From a virus: a stretch of DNA of 25,995 bases. Shown piece after piece: positions 670-21,388 of the stretch. The translations under genes and the position numbers were made by a program. The stretch spans positions 1 through 25,995 of IMG/VR virus record IMGVR_UViG_3300035670_009289; one strand, 5' to 3'. The notes beneath the pieces are model-generated. The model was given only the letters and a program-made list of their open reading frames with translations. It was not told the DNA's origin and ran no database searches. Every line of letters begins with the position of its first letter. Position 1 is the first letter of the stretch.

Positions 670-713
670 TAAGTGCTTACTTAATATATAGCGATTTTGT
701 CGAGGGAATGCAC
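670..713 (-). promoter_or_regulatory. phage promoter with overlapping TAAGT operator
   Basis: Read on the minus strand: GCATTCCC (704-711), 11 nt, then GCTATAT (686-692), matching the repeated promoter element of this window. Immediately downstream lies the palindrome TAAGTGCTTACTTA (670-683), arms TAAGT/ACTTA, where a bound repressor would cover the start site. It drives the gene starting at 652. Confidence 0.7.
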
Positions 714-730
714 AAGATGTTGATGCCGAT

Positions 731-1024
731 TTAACTAAGCGTTCCCATCGCCCGCGAGTAATCGAGGAATTTCTCGACCTTCTGACGCTTGTCTTCCATG
801 TCAGGCAAATCAGCGTCAGTCACTGGCTTAATGTAGCCTTCTTCAGCAAGCATCCGCATAACCGCAAGCAAGTCGATGTATTCGGCACGGATCCGCTCCG
901 CATTGTTGAGATCCTGACCCGGCTGAACCTCGGTGAGCCCAAACCGGAGTGCCTTCGAGCAACGCTGCGCAACCTCATTGCATTCCTCGCCGAGGATGGT
1001 GAGCAGGTGTTCTTTCCGGTTCAT
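731..1024 (-). CDS. MazG-like nucleotide pyrophosphohydrolase
   Basis: A 97-residue all-helical protein with EECNE at residues 13-17 and EYID at 48-51, the E-x-x-E ... E-x-x-D metal-binding pattern of the MazG/all-alpha NTP pyrophosphohydrolase superfamily. Such enzymes hydrolyse (d)NTPs to (d)NMP and pyrophosphate; in phages they are thought to adjust nucleotide or alarmone pools. It is a single-domain version, much shorter than E. coli MazG. ATG at 1024 overlaps the stop of the upstream membrane protein (ATGA), so the two are probably translationally coupled. Substrate cannot be told from sequence. Confidence 0.7.
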   Translation of the reverse strand: MNRKEHLLTILGEECNEVAQRCSKALRFGLTEVQPGQDLNNAERIRAEYIDLLAVMRMLAEEGYIKPVTDADLPDMEDKRQKVEKFLDYSRAMGTLS

Positions 1025-1233
1025 TGCATCTGTCCAATCTTAATACCCAGCCAGACCGCTCCACAGACAGCGCCGATAAGCCAGATGGCGATACCAACAA
1101 CCGGAATAAGGACGAGCGATTCAAGTCCTCCCTTTCGATTGAGGAGTAGTGTCAAAAGCCCGCCCGTGTAGCCGAGCAAAAAGATGCAAACAACGTAGAT
1201 CGCCGCAGCCCCTGTAAGTTCGAGCCAAGTCAT
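1021..1233 (-). CDS. small two-helix membrane protein
   Basis: A 70-residue protein with two hydrophobic stretches, about residues 5-30 and 39-66, joined by a short polar loop (LNRKGGLES). This predicts a small inner-membrane hairpin. It overlaps the HNH gene upstream and the MazG-like gene downstream by ATGA at both ends, so it is firmly in the operon. The function is unknown. Small membrane proteins in phage early operons are diverse, and nothing here identifies a holin or spanin. Confidence 0.65.
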   Translation of the reverse strand: MTWLELTGAAAIYVVCIFLLGYTGGLLTLLLNRKGGLESLVLIPVVGIAIWLIGAVCGAVWLGIKIGQMQ

Positions 1234-1721
1234 TTCTTTTTCCTATTATTGCGTCGGTTGTTCGCCTGTTGTTTATAAGTGGCCCATCGACAGTTACCCC
1301 TATTGTAGGGGCCGTTGTTATCCTCACGATCCAGCGTGTGACCGGCAGGGCGCTCGCCCATGTCCGCAAGGAAGGTCTCGAAGCTCTCCCAAGCGGGATC
1401 GACGGTGATGCCGCGACCTCCGTAGCGGTCGTAGGCGTCATGATTCTCGTTCTGACAACGCGCCTTCATCGAGCGCCAGCTTCGATAGGTCGGATCGTTA
1501 TGATGACCATGTTTCGTGCGCTCAGCGGACCAGACCTTCTTCCTGCACTCCTTGCAGCAAATCTTGCTGCCGCTGTTGAGCGCGGTGATGAAGATGACTT
1601 CAGACCTACCGCAGTCGCAATCGACTTGCCACTTCCAGGTGCCGTTGCGGCTCTGCACAACAGGAGCCTTGGCTGTGAGACTGCCAAAGCGCTTCTCGGT
1701 GATGTCAGTGCCGCGGATCAA
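1230..1721 (-). CDS. HNH-type (homing-like) endonuclease
   Basis: A 163-residue protein with two parts. The N-terminal half has cysteines at 35, 37, 55, 56 and 59, a likely zinc-binding element. The C-terminal half (about 71-157) carries the signature common to many phage HNH proteins: W-x-x-M-x-x-R-C, YGGRGI at 100-105, W-x-x-F-x-x-F-x-x-DMG, DREDN at 131-135 and GNCRWA at 142-147. These are usually free-standing homing-type DNA endonucleases. The likely start is TTG at 1721, overlapping the sbcC stop as TTGA, with GAGG 7 nt upstream. The frame matches the family N-terminus (short lead, then FG-x-L). It probably inserted behind sbcC without breaking it. Confidence 0.8.
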   Translation of the reverse strand: MIRGTDITEKRFGSLTAKAPVVQSRNGTWKWQVDCDCGRSEVIFITALNSGSKICCKECRKKVWSAERTKHGHHNDPTYRSWRSMKARCQNENHDAYDRYGGRGITVDPAWESFETFLADMGERPAGHTLDREDNNGPYNRGNCRWATYKQQANNRRNNRKKK

Positions 1722-3655: not shown

Positions 3656-3732
3656 TTCAGCGTCTCCAGAATGAAAAGGGCGATCGTGCCACCGCCAGCA
3701 ACAATTAGGCCAGCGTAGAACTTAGGTGTCAT
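3652..3732 (-). CDS. 26-residue membrane micropeptide
   Basis: A 26-codon ORF exactly fills the gap before sbcC: ATG at 3732 and a TGA overlapping the sbcC GTG start (GTGA). The product starts MTPKFYAGLIVAGGG and continues hydrophobic to residue 22, a single transmembrane helix with a charged end (ETLK). It overlaps the end of the preceding 140-residue gene by 11 nt. The sbcC Shine-Dalgarno GGAG lies within it. Its own ribosome site (GAAG) is weak. It could be only a leader keeping ribosomes moving into sbcC. Confidence 0.4.
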   Translation of the reverse strand: MTPKFYAGLIVAGGGTIALFILETLK

Positions 3733-4144
3733 CTTCACTGTCTTCGTCCTTCTCGTATCCCACGATCTCGCAAACACCTTCGATGAACTCGTAGGCATTG
3801 ACGATTACGCGGTCTGTTTGATGCACGGTCTCAGCGCAGGAGATCCGCTGGTCCTTGATGAATTTCTGGCAATGCTGCCAAAGATTCTCTTTCGCAGAGG
3901 CTTCGGCGTTTAGCCTTTCCTTTTCTGCCAAACGTCTAGCTTGCCTGCGAGCACTTTGCTCTTCGACCGAAACAGTGCCGCGGTGCCTGGCTTGCCTCGT
4001 TGAATTAGCGGTTCGCCTTTCTTCATCTGTCAAATTAGAACGGCGAGATTTAATAACGCGACCTTCAGCGAGCGCCTTAGCATGTCGCCTTTCTTTGCGG
4101 ATGATCGCTTTAAGGTTCTGGATTTCAGATTTAGGCAGTTTCAC
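3722..4144 (-). CDS. charged helical protein of unknown function
   Basis: A 140-residue, very Arg/Lys/Glu-rich protein, with a predicted long helix or coiled coil from about 15 to 95 and an acidic tail (DEDSEDDT). I do not recognise it. GTG at 4144 overlaps the stop of the upstream gene (GTGA). Residues 1-14 (MKLPKSEIQNLKAI) align with the SbcC N-terminus (MKFPELEIQNFLAI) and share the 12 bases encoding EIQN, although the rest is unrelated. This suggests that the gene was built on, or inserted through, a copied sbcC 5' end. Confidence 0.65.
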   Translation of the reverse strand: MKLPKSEIQNLKAIIRKERRHAKALAEGRVIKSRRSNLTDEERRTANSTRQARHRGTVSVEEQSARRQARRLAEKERLNAEASAKENLWQHCQKFIKDQRISCAETVHQTDRVIVNAYEFIEGVCEIVGYEKDEDSEDDT

Positions 4145-4497
4145 TTCGCACCTGCGTTGATTGCTGCAGCCAGATTGCCGGAAGCAGCAGCGCTCTTGGC
4201 TGCCGACTTAGCCGTGACGGCGCTCGAACCCGCATAGGGCTTCGTCTTCCCACTTGGCACAGTGCCACGATATTCAGTCTTGGCCTTGCTGGCTCCGTGC
4301 GAGCGCTGAGCCTCCGACAGGTAGTATGGCTCCATCTTGAAGTTGCCGAACTTCTTGTAGCCGAGCGCAGTCGAGTGCGGCAGGGCGTGAATGGTTTGAG
4401 CGATGTCGGTTTCGTATTCGCCAATCTTGCGACCCTTGGCGTCGAACTGCGACACAATCTGCTTGGTTGTGAAATGGACGGTGTAAAGCTGCGTCAT
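4141..4497 (-). CDS. hypothetical protein with conserved AASGNLAAAINA tail
   Basis: A 118-residue protein. The first 75 residues look folded, beginning with a strand-like MTQLYTVHFTTKQI. A low-complexity Ala/Ser/Lys linker follows, then the tail SAAASGNLAAAINAGAK. Almost the same tail (DAAASGNLAAAINAA) ends the 195-residue protein at 25043, although the two proteins are otherwise unlike. The codons differ mostly at third positions, so the peptide appears selected. The gene sits between sbcD and the 140-residue gene in the same operon. The function is unknown. Confidence 0.7.
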   Translation of the reverse strand: MTQLYTVHFTTKQIVSQFDAKGRKIGEYETDIAQTIHALPHSTALGYKKFGNFKMEPYYLSEAQRSHGASKAKTEYRGTVPSGKTKPYAGSSAVTAKSAAKSAAASGNLAAAINAGAK

Positions 4498-4560
4498 GAT
4501 ACGTTTCCGTTTCTTTTCAGTGCGTTAGATACGTTTTCGCATCTTCGCGATCGGAGTTCG

Positions 4561-5652
4561 TCAGGCTTCTTCGTAGATCGAGCGGCTTTCTTCGAGGATT
4601 GCCTGACACCGCTTCTTCAGCTTTTCCTTATCGACAGAGGCAGGGATGGTTTTTGCACTGTCGACAAAGTTTGCGACCGACTGGTCAATCGTCAGACCTT
4701 TTGACGCAGCGGCAGACGGACGTGACGCGACAGTTGCCTTCGGCACTTCGATAGACACGCCGAGTGCGCCCCACTTGCGAAACTGGTCACGAAGTTCGTT
4801 GATCTCCGCCTGGGTCATCGTGGGTCCACGGAACCGGACGTAATTGCCACGGCACTCGATCTCCATGTCGGTCTCATCAAGGCCGGTCAGATCGGTGAAC
4901 TTTGGAGCCTGAGTGTCGTGAAAAACAGGATCGTTGCCCTTTTCAACAATGAGGAAGCCGGCACGAGTGCCGACATCGCCCCAATTGTGATGAGTGGTTG
5001 CGCCGACTGAAATCACCTTGCCGCCCGAGAAGGCGACGTGATTATGGTAGTGACCGGCGTAGACGCGCTCAAACCCAAAAGACGCAAGGTCCGTATCTGT
5101 CAGCCCATGCGCGGGCATTCCCGAAAGAACACCATCGATACCGGCGTGGATGAAGACTTCCATATCGACAGCATTGGGATGCGCCGACAGCTTCTGCAGG
5201 TCTTCAAGAAGATCCTTGTTTGAAGAGCGCCAGGGCACGAAGCCAAACCACTCGCCCTCGATCTGCTGAACCGTGACCTCGTTGTAACAGCGGAACATTC
5301 CACCTGCGATCGAGATCTGCGCGAGGTTTTCGATCTGCGAGGAGAGCGCCCGGCTGTCCTTCGACTTCAGATCGTGGTTGCCGGGGATGGCGTGAATATC
5401 GATCCCCATGTTGAGAATCTCTTCCACAGTCGCGCGAAGAGGATTGAGAACTTCCGGATCAATCGAGCCGCGGGTGTGGAAGATGTCGCCGGCAATAAAG
5501 ATGGTCTTGCCGCCCTGTGACTGAAGGGTCAGCGCGGTGCGCTTGAGCTCGGCCAGAATGAGCGACAGGCGAGTGTTGACGCCATCTACCCCGGTCGAGG
5601 AGTAGACGGTTGAGCCGTATGCGTGAATATCTGCAACGACGGCGAACTTCAT
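4561..5652 (-). CDS. sbcD: SbcD/Mre11-like nuclease (T4 gp47-like)
   Basis: A 363-residue calcineurin-like metallophosphoesterase with all the metal motifs: D-x-H at 8-10, GDIFH at 55-59, GNHD at 91-94, His169 in FIHAG and GHYHNH at 200-205. This is the nuclease partner of the SbcC/Rad50-like ATPase, acting on double-strand ends and hairpins. The start is ATG at 5652 (MKFAVVADIH), which overlaps the upstream stop as ATGA. The frame is open further upstream, but that extension reads antisense-free sequence of the neighbouring gene in the wrong frame and lacks family similarity. The C-terminal 80 residues are helical, consistent with the SbcC-binding region. Three small ORFs separate it from sbcC. 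Confidence 0.92.
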   Translation of the reverse strand: MKFAVVADIHAYGSTVYSSTGVDGVNTRLSLILAELKRTALTLQSQGGKTIFIAGDIFHTRGSIDPEVLNPLRATVEEILNMGIDIHAIPGNHDLKSKDSRALSSQIENLAQISIAGGMFRCYNEVTVQQIEGEWFGFVPWRSSNKDLLEDLQKLSAHPNAVDMEVFIHAGIDGVLSGMPAHGLTDTDLASFGFERVYAGHYHNHVAFSGGKVISVGATTHHNWGDVGTRAGFLIVEKGNDPVFHDTQAPKFTDLTGLDETDMEIECRGNYVRFRGPTMTQAEINELRDQFRKWGALGVSIEVPKATVASRPSAAASKGLTIDQSVANFVDSAKTIPASVDKEKLKKRCQAILEESRSIYEEA

Positions 5653-6617
5653 GCTGCTACTCCAAGTGTTTTCGGACGAGGGCGGTAGTCGGACTTGAGA
5701 CGCGGCAAGGTGTCTGGAATCCACATAAGGTTTGTCGCGTGGACGTTCTTTCGATTTCCATCTTTGAACCGGATTACATCGCCCCGAGGGCCGCAGAAGC
5801 AAAGCGCGACAGCGAGTGCCGCATTCACAGAGATCGTCTTGTTGCGCCGAATGAACATGGCGCAAGGCGTGTTATTGTTGAAATAAACCCGGTGAAGGGC
5901 GCCGTTTGAATTACGGAAACGGCCGTAGTTGGAAACTTCGGCGTTATTAATACCTGGCACAGGGCGCCAAATTTCATTAACCGGCTCCAAAACCCCATTA
6001 ACAGAGCGATACCGCGGCTTGTCGAACTTCGGCGTTGCGTCTTTTGGCTTGAAGGGAACAACGTTCGACTTGGCTGGCTCGCGCTCCGGCTGCGGCCCGT
6101 TGTTCATTAGGAAGCTGATATCCTTGTGCGCAGATGCAAGAAGCTGGGCAAGTCGATCATTTTTCGCCGTTAGCTTCGAATTATCTTGCATCACAGTCTG
6201 GAAGTAATTGGCAACTTGCTCAACAGTGCCGCTTACATCGATCACTTCATCGTCGACCGTGACCGCAAATGAAATGTGGGCGCTGTTTCGGCCCTTCTTC
6301 AAGCCTGCGCCGTGACCGCGACCAAGTGACAGCTTTTCTTTCGCCGACTGCTCGATCTTCGGATCATGATGATATGATTCAAGTTCTCCGAGAGATGACT
6401 CGAAGATGTAGTGACCAGGCGGAAGTCCGCTGCCTTTTGGAATGGACACGATTGCTTGCGGATTGTTAGCCTTGAAAATCTGTCGGATAGCGCTCAACAG
6501 ATTTTCGTCCTCGCCCGGTCGCTCTGCACGACTTACGTCAATCGCACGGACGACGATACGACCGCCGATCGATGCGCGAGCCATTCCGCGAATAAAGGGA
6601 AGCTGCGTGATGCTCAC
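5649..6617 (-). CDS. unknown N-terminal domain fused to a degenerate NUMOD4/HNH-like domain
   Basis: A 322-residue protein. Residues 1-175 are unrecognised and end in a short coiled coil. Residues 176-210 form a Pro/Lys-rich linker. Residues 214-237 match a NUMOD4 DNA-binding motif (EIWRPVPG, then VSNYGRFRN). Residues 260-300 follow the HNH_3 layout, with FKDGNRKN and NLMW. In active HNH_3 proteins the DG-N motif is preceded by a catalytic His (H-x-DG); here that position is Phe284. This suggests DNA binding kept and cleavage lost. The start is GTG at 6617 with AAAGG upstream. It is first after the promoter/operator at 6634-6682 and overlaps sbcD by ATGA. Confidence 0.72.
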   Translation of the reverse strand: MSITQLPFIRGMARASIGGRIVVRAIDVSRAERPGEDENLLSAIRQIFKANNPQAIVSIPKGSGLPPGHYIFESSLGELESYHHDPKIEQSAKEKLSLGRGHGAGLKKGRNSAHISFAVTVDDEVIDVSGTVEQVANYFQTVMQDNSKLTAKNDRLAQLLASAHKDISFLMNNGPQPEREPAKSNVVPFKPKDATPKFDKPRYRSVNGVLEPVNEIWRPVPGINNAEVSNYGRFRNSNGALHRVYFNNNTPCAMFIRRNKTISVNAALAVALCFCGPRGDVIRFKDGNRKNVHATNLMWIPDTLPRLKSDYRPRPKTLGVAA

Positions 6618-6633
6618 TTGATACCTTTCTAAG

Positions 6634-6682
6634 TAAGTGATTACTTATGAGAGAAGTTATAGCTGAGCGCAAATCGGAGTGC
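6634..6682 (-). promoter_or_regulatory. phage promoter with TAAGT operator
   Basis: On the minus strand GCACTCCG (6675-6682) is followed after 11 nt by GCTATAA (6657-6663). The palindrome TAAGTGATTACTTA at 6634-6647 follows 9 nt downstream and ends 17 nt before the GTG start at 6617. It is one of two perfect GATT-spaced copies in the window. Confidence 0.7.
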
Positions 6683-6701
6683 TGCAGGTGATGCGCGGGA
6701 A

Positions 6702-7139
6702 TTAAAAGGTCGTCTTTCCGGCAAGCTTGATGAAGTGCTTGTGGTTGACATAGTGCTGCATGGCACCGCCCCGCGCCTCATAATTGCGGAAGGAAAACTT
6801 GGTTGGATCCATGCAGGTGTCGAGGGTCGTGATATAGATCATTCCGCCTCGCTCGCGCTCAACAACGCCAACGTATTTCACCTTCTTGAGCCGGAACTCC
6901 AGGAGGTGATCGTGATCGAAGGCCCACTCTTCCTTGTTGAGGGCCATTGCCGCGGAGATATTAGGTTCTCCGCAGCAGAAGATCTCGCCACGCCAGCGAC
7001 GGGCGAGATAGCAGAGATCACCGTTCGACAACTCGTAGACCGCTCCAATAATGCGGGAGCTGCGCTTCACGACCCACTTGATGTTCTTCTTGGAGAACTT
7101 GCGCTGGGGCGGGCGTGGAAACTTCCGTTTCGCTGCCAT
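6702..7139 (-). CDS. basic protein of unknown function
   Basis: A 145-residue protein with a strongly basic start (MAAKRKFPRPPQRKFSKK) and a compact, strand-rich remainder. It is not recognised. ATG at 7139 has GGAG 9 nt upstream. Its first 122 nt overlap the 3' end of the ASCH gene on the same strand in another frame, a long overlap for this phage, where 1-4 nt overlaps are usual. The basic N-terminus lies wholly inside that overlap. It ends 17 nt before the promoter element at 6682. Confidence 0.6.
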   Translation of the reverse strand: MAAKRKFPRPPQRKFSKKNIKWVVKRSSRIIGAVYELSNGDLCYLARRWRGEIFCCGEPNISAAMALNKEEWAFDHDHLLEFRLKKVKYVGVVERERGGMIYITTLDTCMDPTKFSFRNYEARGGAMQHYVNHKHFIKLAGKTTF

Positions 7140-7569
7140 TTGGGAGGACTCCGTTCCAATCGTAGATGCCCTGTGCGCCTCTGATCGGGATAGGATGCTC
7201 CAGCGTCATCAGGTTCGCCAAGCGCCAGGCAAAGTTGCCGCGCTCCCAATGACCATACGCCTTCTCCTCATCGGAGACCTCCTCCATGAACTCTTCTGTC
7301 ATGAGGCAGCATTCCTCAATCAAGACTGTGCCGAGCAGATAGCCGCAAGGCAGAGTTTCAAGAGGAGGCATTCCGGTCGTAGCGTAGTAGTGAGCGAACC
7401 GCTCATCCTCGAAATAGGCGCGCTGCACTGGCTTCAGACCCTTGGTAGACGCAATACCGATAGTTTGACCAATGATTGAAGCCGGCGCAGGCCAGGTGCG
7501 TGTTTCAAAAGTCTTGAAGCCCATCACCGCTAATGAGGCGAAGGGCTGCCAGATCGAAATTACTTTCAT
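7018..7569 (-). CDS. ASCH-domain protein
   Basis: A 183-residue protein whose first 135 residues fit the ASCH (PUA-like) fold: ISIWQPFASL at 4-13, KTFETRTW at 19-26 and the terminal GIYDW near 133. ASCH proteins are thought to bind or modify RNA or nucleotides; some are amidohydrolases for N4-acetylcytidine. The 45 residues after GIYDWNG are low in structure and lie in the region shared with the next gene, so they may be a read-through tail after loss of an earlier stop. It starts at ATG 7569 without a clear Shine-Dalgarno, directly after the arm of a 14-bp inverted repeat. Confidence 0.68.
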   Translation of the reverse strand: MKVISIWQPFASLAVMGFKTFETRTWPAPASIIGQTIGIASTKGLKPVQRAYFEDERFAHYYATTGMPPLETLPCGYLLGTVLIEECCLMTEEFMEEVSDEEKAYGHWERGNFAWRLANLMTLEHPIPIRGAQGIYDWNGVLPNGSETEVSTPAPAQVLQEEHQVGREAQLPHYWSGLRVVER

Positions 7570-7572
7570 GTT

Positions 7573-7632: not shown

Positions 7633-7637
7633 AGGGA

Positions 7638-9863: not shown

Positions 9864-10898
9864 TCACACGAGGTTGTCGAGCTCAGCGAGGATCGCATCC
9901 TGTTCGGAAACAGGAAGTGCGGAGATACCTGCAGCGGGAGCCGCGGCTTCAGGCGCCGGGGCAGGAGTAGCAGGCGCTTCAAGTGCTGCCAATTCCGCAG
10001 CCGCTTCCTGCTGGCGACGAAGAATTTCAGCCTTGCGAGCTTCCATTGCAGGGTCGATAGCCGGCGCAGCCTGAGCAGCAGGGGCAGCAACCGGAGTAGC
10101 TACGGCAGCAGGAGCGACCGAAGCGCCAGCGACTGCGGCAGCAGTCGAAGAGAGTGCAGCGGTCGGCGTGCGCACACCGGCAGCAGTTGCGGGACCAGTC
10201 AGAGCCGGAACAGCGACACCTGCAATCTGCGCGATGCAGTTGAGAGCCTTCTGTTCCTCACCACGGAAGTAGTTCTGCGCGATAAATTCGTGCAGGTCCG
10301 TCGTGCGGGACAGAATGTCCGGAGAGACAGGCTTCGGCGGAGCCGGATCGACCATCACCTCATACTTCGTATTGAGAGCCTTGCCGGTCTTGGTGATGAT
10401 GATATCAACGCCGGAAACAGGGTCAGTGATATCGCGACCCGCATCGTCGTAGACGTTGATCAGATCCATGATCTTGCCGAACGTCGTGCCGGTGACTTCC
10501 AGAACGACCGGATCTTCACCCGAAGAGCGGTCGATAACGTTCAGAAGAACCGACTTCTTGGCCTTCCACTCGTTGTAGAGTTCCTTGGATTCCTCATCCA
10601 TCGCCGAGTTGATCGCCATTTCGATCGCGGTGTTGAGAACGGACGGCTGCTGGTAGACAGTGTCGCAATCGCCAACGACAGCGAGCGGCTTGCCGTTCTT
10701 GTCAGCCTTGATCCAGTGAACGCCCAGATCGGCCCAATACTGGCCGGATGCCGGCACCCAGGAAGCCTGGGCAGAGGTCGGTGCGAGAATGCGATAAGCA
10801 TTACGACCGTCCTTCGGCTTGACGGTCTTCTGATTGTTGGAAGAATACTTGTTCTTCGCGCCAGAGACCATCTTCTTCAATTCAGGGCTAAGAGCCAT
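9864..10898 (-). CDS. single-stranded DNA-binding protein, gp32-like candidate
   Basis: A 344-residue protein. The N-terminus is basic (KNKYSSNNQKTVKPKDGRN) and leads into YRILAP, the layout of phage gp32-type SSBs. Residues 100-200 are strand-rich and include a G-x-DIIITKTGK strand. A 100-residue Ala/Pro linker follows, then a short conserved-looking acidic tail (ILAELDNLV), typical of SSB interaction tips. The position next to RecA and exonuclease genes fits. ATG at 10898 has AAGGA 9 nt upstream. Its leader has two sets of tandem repeats (10914-10971). No zinc-binding Cys cluster like that of T4 gp32 is seen, so the family call is by layout. Confidence 0.6.
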   Translation of the reverse strand: MALSPELKKMVSGAKNKYSSNNQKTVKPKDGRNAYRILAPTSAQASWVPASGQYWADLGVHWIKADKNGKPLAVVGDCDTVYQQPSVLNTAIEMAINSAMDEESKELYNEWKAKKSVLLNVIDRSSGEDPVVLEVTGTTFGKIMDLINVYDDAGRDITDPVSGVDIIITKTGKALNTKYEVMVDPAPPKPVSPDILSRTTDLHEFIAQNYFRGEEQKALNCIAQIAGVAVPALTGPATAAGVRTPTAALSSTAAAVAGASVAPAAVATPVAAPAAQAAPAIDPAMEARKAEILRRQQEAAAELAALEAPATPAPAPEAAAPAAGISALPVSEQDAILAELDNLV

Positions 10899-10913: not shown

Positions 10914-10971
10914 GTGCTTTGTGCTTTATGCTTTCGACTTGCCTCAATAGCTATTTAGCTATCTAGCTTTT
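10914..10971 (-). repeat. tandem repeats in the ssb leader
   Basis: On the minus strand, three AAAGCAY heptamers in a row (10914-10934) lie just upstream of the ssb ribosome site. Further up are three 8-nt units based on the self-complementary TAGCTA (10948-10971). They lie between the promoter at 10975 and the start codon. The arrangement recalls the repeated, unstructured operator by which T4 gp32 represses its own mRNA (comparison only). Confidence 0.6.
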
Positions 10972-11000
10972 TACTTATAGCGACACGTCGATGGGATCGC
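10971..11000 (-). promoter_or_regulatory. phage promoter for ssb
   Basis: On the minus strand GCGATCCC (10993-11000), 11 nt, GCTATAA (10975-10981). Only a half operator, TAAGTAA (10971-10977), overlaps the -10; no second arm is present. Confidence 0.65.
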
Positions 11001-11017: not shown

Positions 11018-11281
11018 TTACGCTGCCTTGCGGGCAGGGCGGATCAGTCCAGAATTCTTCCAATTGTTCGACAGTTCTGCTGCATCAGCGGCTTCGAGCC
11101 GTGCAGCCTCGGCAAGGCTTGCAGCCTTCTTCGCCTTCGCGTCGGCACGGGCAGCCTTTGCCTTGTGCAGACTTTCCAGGGTTTCAAGATCGCGAACGAC
11201 CTTGCTCTGGCGAGAAACCACACGATCGATGGTCAGTTCCAGACCAACGAGCTTGCGGAGGTATGCGATGATTGCGTCCAT
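11018..11281 (-). CDS. small coiled-coil protein
   Basis: An 87-residue protein that is almost entirely helical and Ala/Lys/Glu-rich from residue 30 to 75, with a basic end (RPARKAA). It is not recognised. ATG at 11281 has AAGGA upstream and follows the clearest promoter/operator of the window (11315-11356). It is a single gene between its own promoter and the ssb promoter, so it is probably made under repressor control. Confidence 0.6.
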   Translation of the reverse strand: MDAIIAYLRKLVGLELTIDRVVSRQSKVVRDLETLESLHKAKAARADAKAKKAASLAEAARLEAADAAELSNNWKNSGLIRPARKAA

Positions 11282-11314
11282 GAGGATCTTCCTTCAGGCA
11301 GGCGTCTCACTAAG

Positions 11315-11356
11315 TAAGTGATTACTTACTTTATAGCGTAAACGACATGGGATTGC
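11315..11356 (-). promoter_or_regulatory. phage promoter with best TAAGT operator
   Basis: On the minus strand GCAATCCC (11349-11356), 11 nt, GCTATAA (11331-11337), then a palindrome at 11315-11328 (plus-strand TAAGTGATTACTTA), extended to AAGTAAGT/ACTTACTT-type arms with AATC between. The operator starts 2 nt after the -10 element. Confidence 0.75.
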
Positions 11357-11358: not shown

Positions 11359-11934
11359 TTAATTTACAGAATTTTCTTCGCTCACCTGAGCGCCGTTGCG
11401 CCGAGCCAGACGTTCAAGCGCACTAGCCTTTGAAGACTCCAAAGCGTCTTCGCGGGCATTACGTTCACGAATGGACAGCTCGCCCTTCATCTCCTCACGC
11501 GAGATCAGACCCTGTTGCACGAGCATATCGCGCCGATGCCGGAACGCTTCGACAGCGGTCTTGCCGATAGACTCGATCCGCTTTGCCTCGTTTAGCGCCT
11601 TCTTGATCGAAATGACCCGCGGATGACGAGCCACCTTAGCGGCAATAGCAGACTCGGTGATCTTCTCGCCTACAGCCGCTAGATCATTGCGGATGATCTG
11701 CTGCACGGCAGCCTCGGTGTTCTCCACCAGCATCTTGACCACATCGGTCTGCTTGGCAGACTCGGCTGCCAGAATGCCGTAGTGAGAGAAAAGAGACGCC
11801 TGCTGCATCATGGCGTCGGTCAGATTGTTGGGTGAGTAGGCGAGATCCGCCTTCAACTGCTTGGCGTCAATGAAGTCGCGGACCTGGTAGACGGTCTGCT
11901 CCTTCCCGACATCGCCGGTCGTGGGTGTCGTCAT
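11359..11934 (-). CDS. helical phage protein of unknown function
   Basis: A 191-residue protein predicted helical almost throughout. It includes LTDAMMQQASLFSHYG at about 38-53 and RRDMLVQQGLISREE near the C-terminus, and ends in a polar tail. I do not recognise a named family. Its position between the polymerase and ssb genes suggests a replication or recombination accessory protein, such as a mediator, but that is context only. ATG at 11934 with AAGGA upstream. It has its own promoter at 11962-11987. Confidence 0.7.
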   Translation of the reverse strand: MTTPTTGDVGKEQTVYQVRDFIDAKQLKADLAYSPNNLTDAMMQQASLFSHYGILAAESAKQTDVVKMLVENTEAAVQQIIRNDLAAVGEKITESAIAAKVARHPRVISIKKALNEAKRIESIGKTAVEAFRHRRDMLVQQGLISREEMKGELSIRERNAREDALESSKASALERLARRNGAQVSEENSVN

Positions 11935-11987: not shown

Positions 11988-11993
11988 TGCAAG

Positions 11994-14900
11994 TCACGAC
12001 AGGCAATCAGCGACAGCCGCGAACACCTCGTTCATGTTCTGCTGCTTGTCGGGATCGTGGTAGATCTCGCCGGGGCTGAACCCGATCACGATGTTTGCAT
12101 CGTAATCCTTCGAGTAGATCACCTTGCCGGCCTGCTCTGACGCCTTGCCCTTGAAGTCGGGGAAGAAGTGTCGAACAGTGGTTGAGCCAAGCAGCACAAT
12201 AACAGGCGGCTTCAACAGCTCGATTTCTCGCGCAAGGTAAGGCTCATAGATCTTGATCTCTTCCGGCGTCACCTGCTTGCCGCGCTTCGGACGCTTGATG
12301 AGTGCCGTCCAGTAGGCATTTGCCCGATCCAGGGACGCATTCTCGATCGCCTCAACGACAGCGTTGTTGGACATGGAGAAGCCCATGACGCCGCCCGTAT
12401 CCTCCTCGTTGCCAGGCGCATCGGAAATGATCATGAAGTCCGCGTTCTTGCCGAAGAACGGCTTGACCGGATAGCCATCGGCAGTCGTCGCCTTCGGGCC
12501 ATGTGCTGCGCGGTATTCATCCACCAGCTCGCCAAGGGCAGCTTTTGTGTCCTTATCCCTGTTCAGTTCGTGCTCGATCGGCACATGTGCGGCGATCAAG
12601 CCTGGCAATAGCGCGATCTGATCCTTGATACGCGAGGGATCATTCGCCGGAACCTGTCCAGGTTCGATACGTGAGAAGGCACCGACGAGATCGAGCGCCT
12701 CTTGAACGCGCTTGTTACAGACGCGCTTTTCAACGCGGGAGAGAAAATCGTTCTTATCGAGAAACGGTCCCGCCTTTCGCGCCTCAAGAATTGCCGCCGT
12801 CGCCTTCTCACTCAGACCCTTGATGCGCTGAAGCGGCATAACCAGTCGAATAGGCGTTGCCATTTCAAAGCGATCGGTCGAGATATTGATATCGGGCATC
12901 GAGACTTCGATACCAAGCGACTTGGCATCGCGGATGATTCCCGTCAGCTTCTCTTCCCTTTGAACAGTGAGAGCGGCTGCGTAAAACTCTGCAGGATAGT
13001 AGGTCTTCAGATACATCGACTGATAGGAGATCAGCGTGTATTCAACCGAGTGCGACTTGTTGAAGCCGTATCCAGCGAAGCCTTCGATCTTGTCAAACAG
13101 CGCGCCGGCCCAATCCTCGGTGCAGCCGATCGTGGCGACACAGCCGTCGCAGAACTTCTTGCGCTCCTTCTTCATCTCCTCCGGCAGCTTCTTACCCATG
13201 ATCTTACGCAGCTTGTCAGCAGCGGCACCGGAATAGCCGGCAATCACCTGGGAGATCTTCATGACCTGTTCCTGATAGACGATGACACCGAAGGTCTCTT
13301 CGAGCACCGGCTCCATCAGTGGATGGTCGTATTCGATATCCTCGTTGCCCTGCTTGCGCAGATAGAACGAGTCCATCATTCCCGATTCAATAGGACCAGG
13401 GCGATAAAGCGCGGTGCAGGCGGTGATGTCTTCGAACGTAATCACGCCCGTTGAGCCGAGCTCCTTCAAGAGCCGGCGCATACCTCCGGACTCGAACTGA
13501 AAGATTGCGGTCGTGTTCGCCTTGGCAAAGTTTGCCAGCACCTTCTCGTCGTCCAGCGGAATCCGGTTAAGATCAAGCCGCTTTCCAGTGTTCTCCCTGA
13601 TGTAGTCGAGGGTGAGCGTCATATGGTCGAGCGTGTTCAAGCCGAGCACGTCCATCTTGACCAGACCCTGATCCTCAACGATGCGCTTGTCCCAGCAGAC
13701 AACATTGCCTTCTTTGCGCCGCTCCACGACTGCGCGGTCTACGATATCGACACCAGCGACAATGACACCGCCTGCGTGCTGACCAAAGTTGCGGATCGTG
13801 CCTTCCAGGCGCTCCATCATCGGATAGTGCGTCGGGTAGTTGTTGGCGAAGTCGTCGATCTCCTTTACCTGCTTGCGAGCCTCGGGGAGGGGAACGTTCT
13901 GCCCGTGCAGCTTTGGAACGAACTTGGAGACGGAGAAGTCCTTTTCGGGAATGAGCGTCACGCGGCCGACGTCACGGATCGCAGACGCCGAGCCGAGCGT
14001 TCCATAATTGTTGACGCCCGCAACGCGCTCAGCGCCATATTTCTTGGTCAGGTATTCGAAGACTTCGTGCCGGCGCTCGGACATGAAATCGAGATCGGCG
14101 TCAGGCAAGTCGATACGTTCGGGGTTGATGAAGCGCTCAAACAGAAGACCGAACCGGATTGGATCGCATTCGGTAATGCCCATCAGGTAAGCAACGAGGG
14201 ATCCGCCCACGGAGCCGCGACCAGGTCCAACCATGATGCCCGACTTCTTGGCAAACTGAACCACGTCCTGCACCAGCAGGAAGTAGCCCGAGAAGTTCAG
14301 GCGCTTCAGCGTTTCAAGTTCGTAGGCAAGACGGGGCTTATAGACCTCAAGCAGCTCTTTCGGATCAGGCTGATGACCGAAGATTGGCGCGTCGAAGCGT
14401 TCCTTCCAGCCCTTCTTGCACTCCTCGACCACAGCCGCAAACTCGTTCGGCGCCATAATTGGAAGGGAGACGTCGGCCTTCTTCCACTCATATTCGACCA
14501 GATTGACGAGTTCGACGGTGTTCATAAGACCGCTCTTGAACTGCGCAGCGGTGAAGCCAGGATCGTTGCCGCGCTTCACCAGATGAGCAACAGCCTTCTT
14601 CATTTCGCCTATCAGCTCGCCAGAGCCCATGACGTGCATGTCACGATTAAACCGGGACTTAAACCAGCCGTCCGTGATCTTGTTGTTCTCGGCTATCGCC
14701 GACATGATCTCCTGAGTGTCAGCCTCGCCCTGACCATAGAACGCCGGCCGCACTACGATCGGCTTCAATCCGTTCTCGTTGATCTGCTTGAGTGCCAGAT
14801 CGTTTAGGCGTCCGTAGTAGGGCGTATTGATCGGGATGAGAGGCGCATAAACGTTCTCGCAAAGAATGGTCAGTCCTTTGATAAGCTTCGTGTGCTCCGA

Positions 14901-15359
14901 ATGCTCCAGGATCGAATGCGCGTCACCAAGCACGATTGCGAGGTCGCCTCGGTCGATGGCGCGCAGCTCGTTGGTAAGATCACTGAAGCCGAGCTTGGCC
15001 TCGTAGTAGAAGCGATCATCCGAATTGGCGAGAGTCAGGAGACGGAAGATCGCCTTCATACCGGCTTCCTTCAGCGCGTAGACGGTGAGGAAGTAAGATC
15101 GCGGCATGTCCTTTTTCTTCTCGCCGTCACCGGGACGCCAGGTCGGGTTATCAGTCAAGCGAAGACGGCAGCCGATGACAGGCTTCAGACCTTCAGCCTT
15201 TGCCTTGTTGGTGAAGTCAATCATAGAGGTAACGGACATTGTATCCGTCATCGCGACAGCTTTTGCTCCGGCTTCGACGGCGTTCTTGATCAGACGCTTG
15301 GTCGTGAGGATGCTTTCGCCGACTGAGAAATCAGTCCGCGCTGCAAGGATCGAGTGCAT
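11994..15359 (-). CDS. dnaE: DNA polymerase III alpha subunit (DnaE-type) fused to a uracil-DNA-glycosylase-like domain
   Basis: A 1121-residue C-family replicative polymerase. The PHP-like N-terminus is degenerate: the family HxH and TDH motifs read LAARTDFS and MTDTMSV, so its metal site is probably lost. The palm has GPGRGSVGGS and the catalytic PDADLDF near 415-421. The fingers and helix-hairpin-helix regions continue to about 900. In place of the usual OB-fold and tau-binding end, residues 972-1121 form a family-4-like UDG domain: SDAPGNEED at 979-987 and VIVLLGST near 1053-1060. The UDG domain lacks Fe-S cysteines, and the usual HPS-type motif reads FSPGEIYH. ATG at 15359 with AGGG upstream. 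It follows the 77-residue gene by 6 nt. Confidence 0.9.
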   Translation of the reverse strand: MHSILAARTDFSVGESILTTKRLIKNAVEAGAKAVAMTDTMSVTSMIDFTNKAKAEGLKPVIGCRLRLTDNPTWRPGDGEKKKDMPRSYFLTVYALKEAGMKAIFRLLTLANSDDRFYYEAKLGFSDLTNELRAIDRGDLAIVLGDAHSILEHSEHTKLIKGLTILCENVYAPLIPINTPYYGRLNDLALKQINENGLKPIVVRPAFYGQGEADTQEIMSAIAENNKITDGWFKSRFNRDMHVMGSGELIGEMKKAVAHLVKRGNDPGFTAAQFKSGLMNTVELVNLVEYEWKKADVSLPIMAPNEFAAVVEECKKGWKERFDAPIFGHQPDPKELLEVYKPRLAYELETLKRLNFSGYFLLVQDVVQFAKKSGIMVGPGRGSVGGSLVAYLMGITECDPIRFGLLFERFINPERIDLPDADLDFMSERRHEVFEYLTKKYGAERVAGVNNYGTLGSASAIRDVGRVTLIPEKDFSVSKFVPKLHGQNVPLPEARKQVKEIDDFANNYPTHYPMMERLEGTIRNFGQHAGGVIVAGVDIVDRAVVERRKEGNVVCWDKRIVEDQGLVKMDVLGLNTLDHMTLTLDYIRENTGKRLDLNRIPLDDEKVLANFAKANTTAIFQFESGGMRRLLKELGSTGVITFEDITACTALYRPGPIESGMMDSFYLRKQGNEDIEYDHPLMEPVLEETFGVIVYQEQVMKISQVIAGYSGAAADKLRKIMGKKLPEEMKKERKKFCDGCVATIGCTEDWAGALFDKIEGFAGYGFNKSHSVEYTLISYQSMYLKTYYPAEFYAAALTVQREEKLTGIIRDAKSLGIEVSMPDINISTDRFEMATPIRLVMPLQRIKGLSEKATAAILEARKAGPFLDKNDFLSRVEKRVCNKRVQEALDLVGAFSRIEPGQVPANDPSRIKDQIALLPGLIAAHVPIEHELNRDKDTKAALGELVDEYRAAHGPKATTADGYPVKPFFGKNADFMIISDAPGNEEDTGGVMGFSMSNNAVVEAIENASLDRANAYWTALIKRPKRGKQVTPEEIKIYEPYLAREIELLKPPVIVLLGSTTVRHFFPDFKGKASEQAGKVIYSKDYDANIVIGFSPGEIYHDPDKQQNMNEVFAAVADCLS

Positions 15360-15365
15360 GGCGAA

Positions 15366-15599
15366 TTACCCTTTGATTGGATGAAAATCGTAAACGAATG
15401 CGTTGGGCTCGCCTTCGAGCAGACCAAGTCCGTCCTTTTGGGAGAGGTCTTTGATCTTGGTGTTTAGACGCTCCTCGACCCGGCGAATGATCGCATCGTT
15501 GATAGAACCGCTTTCGAAAACGCCGTTCGAGAAATGCAAGATTCCCCGGAACCTGTAGCTGTAGAAAAGCCTCGTGCCGGTCTTTTGCTCAGTCGCCAT
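15366..15599 (-). CDS. small protein of unknown function
   Basis: A 77-residue protein that looks folded, with alternating strands around RLFYSYRFRGILHFSN and a helix in the middle. I do not recognise it. ATG at 15599 is chosen because AGGGG lies 6 nt upstream; a TTG two codons earlier overlaps the upstream stop and is less likely. It sits between the four-cysteine protein and the polymerase gene in one minus-strand run. Confidence 0.65.
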   Translation of the reverse strand: MATEQKTGTRLFYSYRFRGILHFSNGVFESGSINDAIIRRVEERLNTKIKDLSQKDGLGLLEGEPNAFVYDFHPIKG

Positions 15600-15601
15600 A
15601 T

Positions 15602-16150: not shown

Positions 16151-16157
16151 GATGGTC

Positions 16158-16790
16158 CTAATTCGAAATGAGCCGCCCGATCTGGCTGACTTCATCCATG
16201 ATCTGCTTCCGCTCGACGCGACTTGCGCCCATGAAGTCAAAGATGATGGCGCTGGTGACACGCTTCGGCACCGCGTAGCAGGCGCCGATTTCCTTGGCAT
16301 AGGCCGCTTTGGCCTGAAGATCGTTCATCCGCTCGATAAGCTCCGGCGGGTTGTCTCGCAGAAAAGTCAGGAACATCTGCGAGCGGCTGGAAAGCCGGGT
16401 CATGGCGTATGCAAAGCAGTCTTCACGCTGAAACGCCTCGTCGTGGCGAATGCCTGTATCGCCAATGATATCGCCCAGAGTGCCGTCGGAGGAATCGTCG
16501 CCGATCTGTAGATCGAGGGATGCGGCGACGGTCTCGGCGTGATTGCGCTCGAAGTTCTTCTCAACCCAACGGTTGATGTGATTGCGGAGCCCGGTGTAGA
16601 GGAACGTCTTGAATGAGGCACCGCCATTATCGTCGTAGGCGTCACAAGCCAGGCACCAGCCGACCCACAATTCGCTTTCGACATCTTCGAGGAGAACGCT
16701 CCTGGCCCCAAGCGCATGAACGCGCTTGAGAACCTTGTATGCGAAAGCCTTGATCTGGCTGCGATCAAGTTTTGGATCACGCTTGATCAT
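16158..16790 (-). CDS. phage RNA polymerase sigma factor
   Basis: A 210-residue protein whose residues 10-80 fit sigma-70 region 2: basic helix, LLEDVESELWVGWCLACDAY, then F-KTFLYTGLRNHINRW. This part binds the core enzyme and melts the -10 element. The remainder is helical but no standard region 4 helix-turn-helix stands out, similar to short phage sigmas such as T4 gp55 (layout comparison). It may direct the host polymerase to the repeated GCTATAW promoters of this window. ATG at 16790 overlaps the cobS-like stop (ATGA). Confidence 0.75.
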   Translation of the reverse strand: MIKRDPKLDRSQIKAFAYKVLKRVHALGARSVLLEDVESELWVGWCLACDAYDDNGGASFKTFLYTGLRNHINRWVEKNFERNHAETVAASLDLQIGDDSSDGTLGDIIGDTGIRHDEAFQREDCFAYAMTRLSSRSQMFLTFLRDNPPELIERMNDLQAKAAYAKEIGACYAVPKRVTSAIIFDFMGASRVERKQIMDEVSQIGRLISN

Positions 16791-18094: not shown

Positions 18095-18135
18095 GATTTC
18101 CCTCTTGTGTGATGAAGCGCTTTCGCGTTGCGCTA

Positions 18136-18170
18136 TAAGTAACTGATTACTTATTTTCGAGTTGGGACGC
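18136..18170 (-). promoter_or_regulatory. operator and partial promoter upstream of cobS
   Basis: The plus-strand sequence TAAGTAACTGATTACTTA (18136-18153) differs by one base from the 18-nt operator core at 11311-11328. GCGTCCC (minus strand, 18164-18170) sits at the usual place, but the GCTATAW -10 is replaced by operator sequence. The promoter is weaker or different. Confidence 0.5.
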
Positions 18171-18205
18171 AAGCGGGAAAACTAAGCTCCCGCTTACTTT
18201 TTTTT
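18171..18205 (+). terminator. hairpin with T8 tract (intrinsic-terminator shape on plus strand)
   Basis: Arms AAGCGGGA (18171-18178) and TCCCGCTT (18188-18195), 9-nt loop, followed by AC and eight T (18198-18205). Read on the plus strand it is a textbook intrinsic terminator, but all genes here are on the minus strand, where the T tract becomes an A tract before the hairpin. It may stop antisense transcription, or act as a structure at the end of the cobT mRNA. Confidence 0.5.
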
Positions 18206-20511
18206 CAAACGCCGATAAGGATCTTCTTGATTTCGGTCATCACCTGGCCGGGAAGATCCTCGGCCTTACGCAGAACCGTCGACTTCGGGTAATACTTGTT
18301 GACGGAATCGTCCATGATCCCGATCCCGATACATTCGATACCGATCTTGCCAAGCTGCTTGACGACACCAGCAAGGTGTGGACCGGACTTGTGACCGCCC
18401 GCTGGCTGGCCGTCAGAGAGAACCAGCATCACCTTGCGCTTTTCCATCCGTTTCAACAGACGCTCGGCTGCGTATTCCAGGGACTCGCCGTCGATGTTGC
18501 CGTTCAGTCCAGGCTGAGCGCGTTTCATGAAGGCGAAACGCGCTTTCACGGTCGCGGTCAGGCGCTCATCGAAGGTCTTGTAGATTGGCATCACAATCGG
18601 CGTGGTCCGATCCCAACTAATACGCGCCTTCTTCGCCTCTTCGGCCATTGCATCGCGCAGCGACTGCGGCATGTAGCCATAGCCACCCGTCGTAAAGCCG
18701 ATCACCTCGTGCGCGATCTTGACGCGATCAAGCGTGGAGCAGAGCGCGTATCCGGCAGTCATCGCAAGGTTCATCTTGTGACCACCCATCGAGCCGGAGT
18801 TGTCGATCACGACAGACACAGCCGTATCCTTGGAGACATGCTCCTGCTTTTGCGTGAAGACGCGCGGATCGCCGCCTGGCACACGAAACAGCGACGGCGC
18901 ATGAAGCTTTCCGGTGCGATGACCAGGAGTTCGAATGACGTGGGACTGAGACGCCATGATGCGCTCAATATCCTTTTGCATCTTCGAGGTCATGAGCCGC
19001 GTCTCGTCTTCCATTTCCGGAACCCACTTGGAGTTCATATTGTCCGGAAGCTGGACGGGCTTGATTTCGTCAAGCTCGCGGGTGAACACCAGATACTGCT
19101 TCGGATCCATTGCCGCGACTGCTGCATCAGAGATCTTGATGGCGATCTGCGATGACATGTCGACCTCTTCGAAGTCGCCATCTTCATAATCGAACATGGA
19201 CTTTGCGCCACCGTTACCGACGCCTCCTCCACCGCCTTGATGCTCTTCGTCTGATCCTTCGCCTACTTCGCCCTCGCCACCGCCTTCATCACCTGCAGTG
19301 ATGACGGACGAGACCTCGTTGCGGCGACCACCCTCGCCATCGTCATCGTCTTCGTCGGAGCTATCGCTTGAGACGTCTTCGCCATCGTCATTCTCATCGC
19401 CGTCTTCAGCGCCTGACGACACAGTCTCGTCTTCCTCAGCGTCCGGGTCTTTATCCGTAACATCTTCGCCGTCTACGGTGCTGTCTTCATCCGGTTCATC
19501 TTCGGAAGCTTCACCATCGACGCCGTCCTCCGCAGTCTCAGGCTCATCATCGACCTCCTCTGCAGGCTCTTCTTCCTTCTTCTTGTCCTTGCCCTTTGAC
19601 TTCTTGTCGTCAGCCTTTGAGCCGCTACCGCTGCCTTCGCCCTCGGCTTCGTCTTCACCCTTGCTCTCTTCACCCTTGCCGCTATCACCAGGATCCTTAT
19701 CCTTGTGATCGCGCTCGCCGTCGCCATCGCCCTCGCCAGCCTCCTTTTCGGGCTTGTCCTGAGACTTGCCCTTCTGGCTGATCTTGACTTCCGGCTCAGG
19801 TGCGGCAGGCGGGGCAGGCGGGGCAGGCGGCAGGATCTTGCCCATGAGGATGTCATGGACCTCCTCTGTCACAGCGAGCGTTTCCTTCGTGGTCGTGGCC
19901 TTCTTGAGAAGATCGAGCGTTGCAGGCTTCATGGTCTTCAGAAGCTCTTCGACCATTGGATGCTTCCAGTAGCCGCGCTTATCCATCCATTCCTGCATTT
20001 CCTCATGCCCGCCCAGAGCACGCATCATCGGAACGAGAATGTAGCGAAACTGCTCCTTGGGATCCTTTACGCCCTTCAGCGCGACATCGGTGATCTTTTC
20101 GAGAAACCACTTGCGCGTAACCGACAAATTGCGCGCGGCACCAGGAAAAGTCTTTACCTGCTCGCGCTCGATCATCACGTCTTCGATGATGTTATGGGTC
20201 TGCATGAAAGCCCGGCGCTTGGGATCACGCAGATCCCTCTCGCTCATCCCGCCCTTTCCACCATAGTAGTTCCAGTCGGTGTGCAAGACATGCGCAACTT
20301 CGTGATCAACGAAGCCTGAAATGGCTGCGATGAACTCAGGCTGCGCATTGTCGGGAATATTGGGAATGTTGACCAAGATTGGCTGCTTGGTCTTAACGTC
20401 GGTCTTTACATATGCCTGCGAACCGCGCTGCGTCACTGCCAAACCCTTGCCTGACAGAAGAGGAACGAGCTTCGTAATCACCTCGCGCAATTCGATGATG
20501 TCGCGGTTCAT
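18205..20511 (-). CDS. cobT: CobT-like VWA-domain protein with HExxH motif
   Basis: A 768-residue protein. The N-terminal third has HEVAHVLHTD at 70-79 and IIEDVMIERE near 108-117, a zincin-like HExxH with a downstream Glu. A very acidic, repetitive Asp/Glu/Ser/Gly region lies at about 225-435. The C-terminal VWA domain has the MIDAS motif DNSGSMGG near 570 and LVLSDGQPAGG further on. This is the layout of CobT-type VWA partners of CobS ATPases. Whether the HExxH is a working protease is unknown. ATG at 20511 with GGAG 9 nt upstream, behind an operator at 20531-20548. The gene is longer than bacterial cobT (about 630 residues), mainly through the acidic region. Confidence 0.87.
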   Translation of the reverse strand: MNRDIIELREVITKLVPLLSGKGLAVTQRGSQAYVKTDVKTKQPILVNIPNIPDNAQPEFIAAISGFVDHEVAHVLHTDWNYYGGKGGMSERDLRDPKRRAFMQTHNIIEDVMIEREQVKTFPGAARNLSVTRKWFLEKITDVALKGVKDPKEQFRYILVPMMRALGGHEEMQEWMDKRGYWKHPMVEELLKTMKPATLDLLKKATTTKETLAVTEEVHDILMGKILPPAPPAPPAAPEPEVKISQKGKSQDKPEKEAGEGDGDGERDHKDKDPGDSGKGEESKGEDEAEGEGSGSGSKADDKKSKGKDKKKEEEPAEEVDDEPETAEDGVDGEASEDEPDEDSTVDGEDVTDKDPDAEEDETVSSGAEDGDENDDGEDVSSDSSDEDDDDGEGGRRNEVSSVITAGDEGGGEGEVGEGSDEEHQGGGGGVGNGGAKSMFDYEDGDFEEVDMSSQIAIKISDAAVAAMDPKQYLVFTRELDEIKPVQLPDNMNSKWVPEMEDETRLMTSKMQKDIERIMASQSHVIRTPGHRTGKLHAPSLFRVPGGDPRVFTQKQEHVSKDTAVSVVIDNSGSMGGHKMNLAMTAGYALCSTLDRVKIAHEVIGFTTGGYGYMPQSLRDAMAEEAKKARISWDRTTPIVMPIYKTFDERLTATVKARFAFMKRAQPGLNGNIDGESLEYAAERLLKRMEKRKVMLVLSDGQPAGGHKSGPHLAGVVKQLGKIGIECIGIGIMDDSVNKYYPKSTVLRKAEDLPGQVMTEIKKILIGV

Positions 20512-20530
20512 ATCGCGTCTCTCCGTGAAA

Positions 20531-20571
20531 TAAGTAGTTGATTACTTATGTTTAGTCTTAAAATGAACGGA
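20531..20571 (-). promoter_or_regulatory. operator and weak promoter upstream of cobT
   Basis: TAAGTAGTTGATTACTTA (plus strand, 20531-20548) is a two-mismatch copy of the extended operator. Upstream on the minus strand TCCG (20568-20571), 11 nt, ACTAAAC (20550-20556) is a poor match to the phage promoter, keeping the spacing. It overlaps the end of the upstream gene. Confidence 0.5.
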
Positions 20572-20785
20572 ACACTACAGGCTTCAAGTCAAAGGGTAGA
20601 AGACCCTTAGCATCGCCGATCGCCGGGATAACAACGTGAATATTACCGTGGATCGGATGCTTGCCGGAGTAGATGGTGCAGCCATTCAGTTCCTCCACTT
20701 CGAGCCCTTCCAGCTCCATAGCAACCTCATTGGCTTGCTCATTGGTGAAAGAAAGACTGCGAAGGAAAGGGGACTTCTCGCTCAT
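20558..20785 (-). CDS. small protein of unknown function
   Basis: A 75-residue protein starting MSEKSPFLRSLSF. ATG 20785 has GAGG 5 nt upstream; a longer in-frame start at 20821 would run through the operator and is rejected. The sequence suggests a helix followed by strands (GCTIYSGKHPIHGNIHVVIP). It is not recognised. It lies behind the operator at 20810-20827 and its end overlaps the cobT promoter region. Confidence 0.6.
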   Translation of the reverse strand: MSEKSPFLRSLSFTNEQANEVAMELEGLEVEELNGCTIYSGKHPIHGNIHVVIPAIGDAKGLLPFDLKPVVFRSF

Positions 20786-20809
20786 GATAACCTCGTCGTT
20801 GGGGCGGTG

Positions 20810-20827
20810 TAAGTATGTCATTACTTA
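20810..20827 (-). promoter_or_regulatory. TAAGT-type operator
   Basis: TAAGTATGTCATTACTTA on the plus strand, a two-mismatch copy of the extended operator at 11311-11328. The promoter upstream on the minus strand is unclear (GCAAATA near the -10 position, GCATTCT further up). It precedes the 75-residue gene. Confidence 0.5.
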
Positions 20828-20899
20828 TTTGCGCGGACAAAAAGAATGCTTGCCATTGGTATAGCAAGCATTCGATCGAACCGCAGCAGTTTGGGAGCG

Positions 20900-21298
20900 T
20901 CATGCCTTTGGTTTGAATATCTCCCGCAAAGCGGTCTCCTGTTCCTCGGTTAATTTTGGGACGTCCTCGGCGACCTCTCTGATCACTCTGAGGATCTTGC
21001 GCTCTTCGGCAGATATGCCGTGCTCCAGAAGATCCGTCATAAGTCTGACAGAGGCGTCGTCATAGAATTGGGTCAGCGCCAGTTTGAACATCGCGACCTG
21101 GTCAACACCCAGGGTCTTCGCCATCACTGGAACGCGGTCGAGAGCGAGCTTCACATGGCCCTGCTTGAGCATGGTAATCATATTCGGGTTCTTAAAACCC
21201 ACTGCCGCAGCAATCTCTTTCTGAGACTTCGGCGACTCCATGAGCAGCTTCATGATGTAATTGGAAAACCTCGAAGGTGTTCCTGTTTCGTTTGCCAT
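20900..21298 (-). CDS. XRE/Cro-CI-like transcriptional regulator
   Basis: A 132-residue protein with a helix-turn-helix at about 25-50 (SQKEIAAAVGFKNPNMITML) inside an XRE-type five-helix fold, followed by a helical C-terminus likely used for dimerisation. No protease-type (LexA/CI) C-terminal domain is visible. ATG at 21298 has AGGGG about 7 nt upstream, with promoter at 21360-21388. Regulators of this class bind short palindromes, so it is the leading candidate to read the TAAGT operators. That link is inference. It stands next to the plus-strand replicon cassette and could equally regulate that. Confidence 0.75.
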   Translation of the reverse strand: MANETGTPSRFSNYIMKLLMESPKSQKEIAAAVGFKNPNMITMLKQGHVKLALDRVPVMAKTLGVDQVAMFKLALTQFYDDASVRLMTDLLEHGISAEERKILRVIREVAEDVPKLTEEQETALREIFKPKA

Positions 21299-21359
21299 TG
21301 TAAATCCCCTAATAGGCGGTTCGTTTTCAATTTTAGCGTCTCGCTTTCGACAAACTGAT

Positions 21360-21388
21360 ATATAGCAAGACGTTGATGGGACCGTTGC
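21360..21388 (-). promoter_or_regulatory. phage promoter for the XRE regulator
   Basis: On the minus strand TCCC (21378-21381), 11 nt, GCTATAT (21360-21366). The GCA block upstream of TCCC is not kept (ACGG instead). No TAAGT palindrome follows. Confidence 0.6.

Follow-up and report, generated by a model that had tools for sequence, protein, structure and literature searches.

Sequence comparison suggests that a phage sigma factor, not that of the host, turns on DNA-replication genes in plasmid-like phages of rhizobia and their kin

Judged by its sequence context, the repeated motif TCCN-N11-GCTATA(A/T) is a genuine promoter class of the plasmid-like phages of rhizobia and their kin. The findings suggest that these promoters turn on DNA-replication genes through a sigma factor of the phage itself rather than that of the host. 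The sites are probably phage-specific promoters read by RNA polymerase carrying the sigma factor P0001, which is encoded within the stretch of DNA analysed here (25,995 nt, positions 1 to 25,995 of IMG/VR virus record IMGVR_UViG_3300035670_009289; hereafter the window).

The window covers part of a RepC-type phage-plasmid of ~120 kb. Its nearest relatives, at ~78% identity to the window, are the Rhizobium phages V1VFA-S, RHph_X66 (hereafter X66) and B1VFA. In Sinorhizobium, Shinella, Pararhizobium and Methylobacterium, related elements are found as phages or as 115-120-kb plasmids, and in Ancylobacter as a 114-kb contig. The genes recognised in the window include those for RepC, XRE, CobT-like, CobS-like, sigma, DnaE, SSB, RecA and SbcC/D-like proteins. 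RepC and the conserved XRE-CobT-CobS-sigma-DnaE order, both shared with the RHEph10/pLM21S1 group, place the window in that group, which consists of plasmid-like prophages (PMC4447125, PMC5537653). A word search of these two papers returned no mention of sigma factors or promoters. The DNA polymerase III alpha subunit of the window (11994-15359) bears a C-terminal uracil-DNA glycosylase-superfamily domain (2.4e-13).

Seven minus-strand gaps had been singled out by the original prediction as sharing TCCN, exactly 11 nt and GCTATA(A/T), and all seven were recovered (Table 1). GC(A/G) stands one base upstream of TCC in six of them, as had also been proposed, the exception being 21360-21381, which reads ACGGTCC. 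The strict form of the motif, GCANTCCC-N11-GCTATAW, occurs three times in the window and never in 100 dinucleotide shuffles. Relaxed to YCC-N12-GCTATAW, it yields seven matches on the minus strand and none on the plus strand, against an expectation of 0.1 (largest 1), and all seven are intergenic in a window that is 7% intergenic. Every minus-strand GCTATAW has TCC at the exact distance, and the single plus-strand copy lacks it. The box lies 27-76 nt before the start codon. A weight matrix partly trained on X66 sites added two weaker sites to the original seven. Between the promoter at 6657 and the SbcD-like gene lies an HNH/NUMOD4-matching ORF (5649-6617); X66 has no such gene there. The leader of the SSB gene (10930-10975) carries GCTAGATAGCTAAATAGCTA-type repeats, variants of which precede the SSB genes of X66, N1_10 and the Shinella relatives.

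Table 1. Positions of candidate promoters, operator palindromes and regulatory genes in the window.
Feature	Position	Strand	Remark
Promoter GCATTCCC-N11-GCTATAT	686..711	-	33 nt before CDS 182-652; operator palindrome just downstream
Promoter GCACTCCG-N11-GCTATAA, CACCTGCA upstream	6657..6682	-	before HNH/SbcD-like genes 5649-6617 / 4561-5865
Promoter GCACTCCC-N11-GCTATAA	7607..7632	-	before ASCH-domain-like gene 7018-7569
Promoter GCGATCCC-N11-GCTATAA	10975..11000	-	before gp32-like SSB gene 9864-10898
Promoter GCAATCCC-N11-GCTATAA	11331..11356	-	before CDS 11018-11281; operator directly downstream
Promoter GCACTCCA-N11-GCTATAA	11962..11987	-	before CDS 11359-11934
Promoter TCCC-N11-GCTATAT	21360..21381	-	before XRE-CobT-CobS-sigma-DnaE run, which includes the sigma gene
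Weaker eighth candidate TTC-N12-GCTATAC	20859..20880	-	before CDS 20558-20821; score 16.9
Weak ninth candidate CCTGACGAACTCC...GCGAAAA	4534..4555	-	before CDS 4141-4497; X66 counterpart gene has a similar weak site
Phage sigma factor P0001, 210 aa	16158..16790	-	Sigma70 region 2 (5.2e-8, over cut-off) and C-terminal helical domain; proposed promoter reader
XRE-family HTH protein	20900..21298	-	opens the sigma gene run; may be a regulator
Sigma-70-like promoter TTGACA-N16-TCTAAC	21396..21423	-	upstream of the gene run's phage-type promoter; proposed source of first sigma molecules
Operator palindrome TAAGTAAGTGTTGACATA	21416..21433	-	overlaps TTGACA
Operator palindrome TAAGTAAGCACTTACGTA	666..683	-	downstream of promoter 686
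Operator palindrome TAAGTAATCACTTACTTA	6630..6647	-	downstream of promoter 6657
Operator palindrome TAAGTAATCACTTACTTA	11311..11328	-	downstream of promoter 11331
Further copies of operator palindrome TAAGTAANNNNTTACTTA	18136-18153, 20531-20548, 20810-20827		in the window

Unbiased motif discovery in complete relatives gave a fuller motif, aCCTGnnGCAnTCC - 13 nt - CTATAA, with a G before CTATAA. Expectation-maximisation over the upstream gaps of X66, which unlike the weight matrix was not trained on X66 sites, converged on aCCtgccGCatTCC - N12 - GCTATAA whichever of three seeds it was given (the element, the -10 or the two together). The end of TCC is 13 nt from CTATAA (14 from TATAAN). Of 15 intergenic cases, 14 have exactly 13 nt between the element and CTAT, and the spacing shows no peak inside genes. 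The same approach in N1_10 first settled on an operator palindrome and, after masking, gave a weak promoter consensus, so the element-to-CTAT spacing count was used there. The upstream block proved longer than GCANTCCC: it reads ACCTGnnGCAnTCC and spans about -40 to -27, overlapping the usual place of a -35. Methylobacterium relatives keep the upstream CC and the spacing, with AAACCC or AAACGCC as the block. The -10 is lineage-specific, being CTATAA in the window and CTATTC in the RHEph10 clade.

The enrichment just upstream of start codons that the original prediction anticipated was found in a genome-wide search, the motif being nearly absent inside genes. In the relatives it is oriented with the coding strand and precedes start codons by ~35-50 nt (21 of 30 X66 sites have the -10 at 34-50 nt), and the genes that follow serve replication, recombination, nucleotide metabolism and accessory functions. 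Six viral relatives have 9-21 matches each, compared with 0-1 in controls, and at least 25 related phages and phage-plasmids carry the motif. Within IMG/VR, two records have one stretch with two strict-motif matches (IMGVR_UViG_2617270923_000003 and IMGVR_UViG_3300048850_000049) and a third has matches in two stretches (IMGVR_UViG_3300046474_000274); all three are among the window's sigma relatives. The single strict-motif matches scattered over IMG/VR are mostly put down to chance. A T7-like RNA polymerase promoter was also considered for CTATA and rejected, as the second conserved block is too far upstream and the window proteins scanned include no such polymerase.

The Ancylobacter genome holds 20 motif matches, 12 on the 114-kb phage-plasmid contig and 8 in the remainder, compared with 41 for a reversed-pattern control over the whole genome. 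The strict motif was found in none of 61 genomes of Ancylobacter's order. As far as these genomes tell, the motif is not used by host DNA; this, the enrichment before starts and the recurrence among relatives support the proposal of a new promoter class. It is highly improbable that the sites are plain host sigma-70 promoters whose -35 is weak or missing and which work mainly through an extended -10. The S. meliloti sigma-70 promoter is CTTGAC-N17-CTATAT (PMC2873474), and the phage CTATAA, with G in front, is close to its -10; the GCTATAA box alone would also suit rhizobial sigma-70, which counts against P0001 as the reader. However, CTTGAC is absent 17 nt before the -10 at the window sites, where nnnGCA stands instead, and the phage class has its 14-bp element in place of CTTGAC, in keeping with the earlier view that the upstream block is not a standard -35. 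The fixing of that block at exactly 13 nt and the lack of enrichment in host DNA also argue against host sigma-70, as does the RHEph10 clade, which has CTATTC in the same host species.

Exactly one Sigma70_r2 gene is present in each of the four phage genomes tested. The predicted structure of P0001 has a mean pLDDT of 75.6, and the predicted fold of residues 1-80 matches sigma domain 2 (SigE, Z 9.6, 1.8 A over 73 residues). Residues 113-210 are predicted to fold like sigma-H residues 130-197 (3mzy, Z 8.5, 2.6 A over 68). The sigma-H-like predicted fold makes a putative region 4 in P0001 likely, but Pfam region 4 was found neither in P0001 nor in its relatives and the profile comparison with host region 4 (hhalign) was weak. 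On the Methylobacterium plasmid pAMS5a, a CobT-like N-terminal protein is fused to Sigma70 region 4 (L124:1064-2104; 2.9e-6) beside a very divergent phage sigma, and no such fusion was seen in other relatives. The idea drawn from pAMS5a, that a CobT-like protein carries region 4, was dropped, since none does so in the window or eight relatives. Weighing against the phage sigma as the reader, Stenotrophomonas phage BUCTxx99 has a sigma-like gene, and the motif was not found in the 33 kb examined.

The -10 type tracks the type of sigma region 2.4 across 25 relatives. The comparison covered 26 sigma homologues, 17 of HINRW type, eight of SKL type (RR-SKLAINR..FKRI) and one intermediate (L140). 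At the 17 HINRW-type loci, CC-N13-CTATA(A/G/T) occurs 82 times on the coding strand and once on the other; at the eight SKL-type loci, CC-N13-CTATT(C/T) occurs 59 times on the coding strand and not at all on the other. The SKL-type sigmas form one clade (support 99/98), which makes the covariation a single evolutionary event, and its Fisher value ignores descent. Another phage gene changed on that branch could therefore be the cause. R. phaseoli was the isolation host of both X66 (HINRW type) and N1_10 (SKL type), and host sigma-70 therefore does not explain the -10 shift. The match between -10 and region 2.4 favours the earlier suggestion that a phage factor may be needed, and points to the phage sigma as the likely one.

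A MotA-like arrangement, in which the -10 is read by host sigma-70 and the block centred near -33 is bound by a different phage protein, perhaps XRE, that replaces -35 recognition, appears unlikely. The T4 MotA box lies at -35 to -26, 12 +/- 1 bp from the -10 (PMC2988021), and the phage block fits it in position and spacing. At 14 bp the block is wide for sigma region 4, and its reach to ~-27, nearer the -10 than the usual region 4 contact, weighs against P0001 as the reader. The downstream genes are similar to T4 middle genes, and a strong block is compatible with a weak -10 such as GCTAAAA. Of the two -10 types, CTATAA fits host sigma-70 and the CTATTC of the RHEph10 clade fits it poorly. 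Against this arrangement, the -10 is not the same in all phages of one host species and tracks the phage sigma, which host sigma-70 would not require, and homologues of MotA and AsiA (PF09158, PF09010) were found in none of four genomes, profiles that leave room for unrelated analogues.

Palindromic operators are a second repeated feature of these genomes. In X66, phage-type promoters occupy 0 of 14 virion-region gaps vs 29 of 68 other gaps (Fisher p = 0.0015) and the operator palindrome 31 of 82 upstream gaps, statistics that depend on the deposited gene annotation. In N1_10 another palindrome (GTCAGTAAATATTGACTGAC-like) occurs 44 times, in 40 cases between genes. The palindromes look like a genome-wide lysogeny repressor network with a putative repressor and a group-specific sequence. 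Many dispersed operator copies are familiar in temperate phages from the C1 operators of P1 and the stoperators of mycobacteriophage L5; the likeness lies in one operator with many scattered copies, and the sequences differ. There is very little to recommend the idea that the upstream block is itself an operator for a phage repressor or replication protein, beside the promoter and outside promoter recognition. Such phages do carry a genome-wide operator, yet the palindrome is a separate sequence in variable places, whereas the spacing between the GCAnTCC block and the -10 does not vary, and virion-gene promoters with operators lack the block.

Several X66 virion-region gaps have sigma-70-like promoters around operators. 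In virion-gene gaps these take the form TTGnnn-N17-TA(C/T)NAT with the operator exactly between the hexamers (X66, L008, upstream of 20804, 24604 and 38122; N1_10, L021, upstream of 23162, 29165 and 39942). A role for the sigma as a late factor for virion genes was set aside on the X66 gap counts.

If P0001 is the reader, its region 2 would recognise the -10 box (CTATAA after G), and its C-terminal region-4-like domain, or a partner protein, would recognise ACCTGnnGCAnTCC instead of a -35. In the window, the DNA before the XRE gene holds, in order, TAAGTAAGTGTTGACA, with the palindrome over the sigma-70-like -35, then TCTAAC, then the phage-type promoter. This tandem order recurs in most relatives examined, N1_10 having its own operator sequence. 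The XRE, CobT-like, CobS-like, sigma and DnaE run would thus start at tandem promoters, an operator-covered TTGACA followed by a phage-type promoter. Repression of the sigma-70 promoter may keep the sigma gene off; once the repressor departs, host sigma-70 would initiate transcription of the run, after which the phage sigma would boost its own production and activate replication, recombination and nucleotide-metabolism genes. There is about an even chance that these features together make up a phage sigma regulon, new to science and spread across phage-plasmids of Alphaproteobacteria. Its sigma2-sigma4 factor, with region 4 rebuilt, would read a 14-bp element shifted toward the -10 and amplify its own operon behind an operator-covered sigma-70 promoter, and would have switched -10 specificity once via a remodelled region 2.4.

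This scheme offers a candidate transcription logic for widespread, little-studied temperate phage-plasmids of nitrogen-fixing and plant-associated bacteria. The motif annotates dozens of transcription units per genome and may assign targets to an orphan sigma gene. Phages of one host species in which region 2.4 and the -10 box changed together provide a natural experiment, and the sigma and promoter pair could serve as an orthogonal set for rhizobia.

Among known systems, the middle promoters of T4, which use the MotA box, AsiA and host sigma-70, resemble the phage class in having an element near -30 that replaces the -35, ~12-14 nt from a TATAAT-like -10, and in driving replication, recombination and nucleotide genes. 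The phage class differs in its longer and distinct element, in having no MotA or AsiA homologue in the four genomes tested and in a -10 that varies with the phage-coded sigma. Phage-encoded sigma factors with promoters of their own include T4 gp55 and SPO1 gp28 and gp33/34. As in those systems, a small phage protein of the sigma-70 family seems to specify a class of promoters that the host lacks. In contrast, the present factor belongs to temperate phage-plasmids of Alphaproteobacteria and is predicted to combine sigma2 with a divergent region-4-like domain. Its proposed self-amplifying loop would lie behind a repressor, and the promoter class appears to serve replication rather than virion genes.
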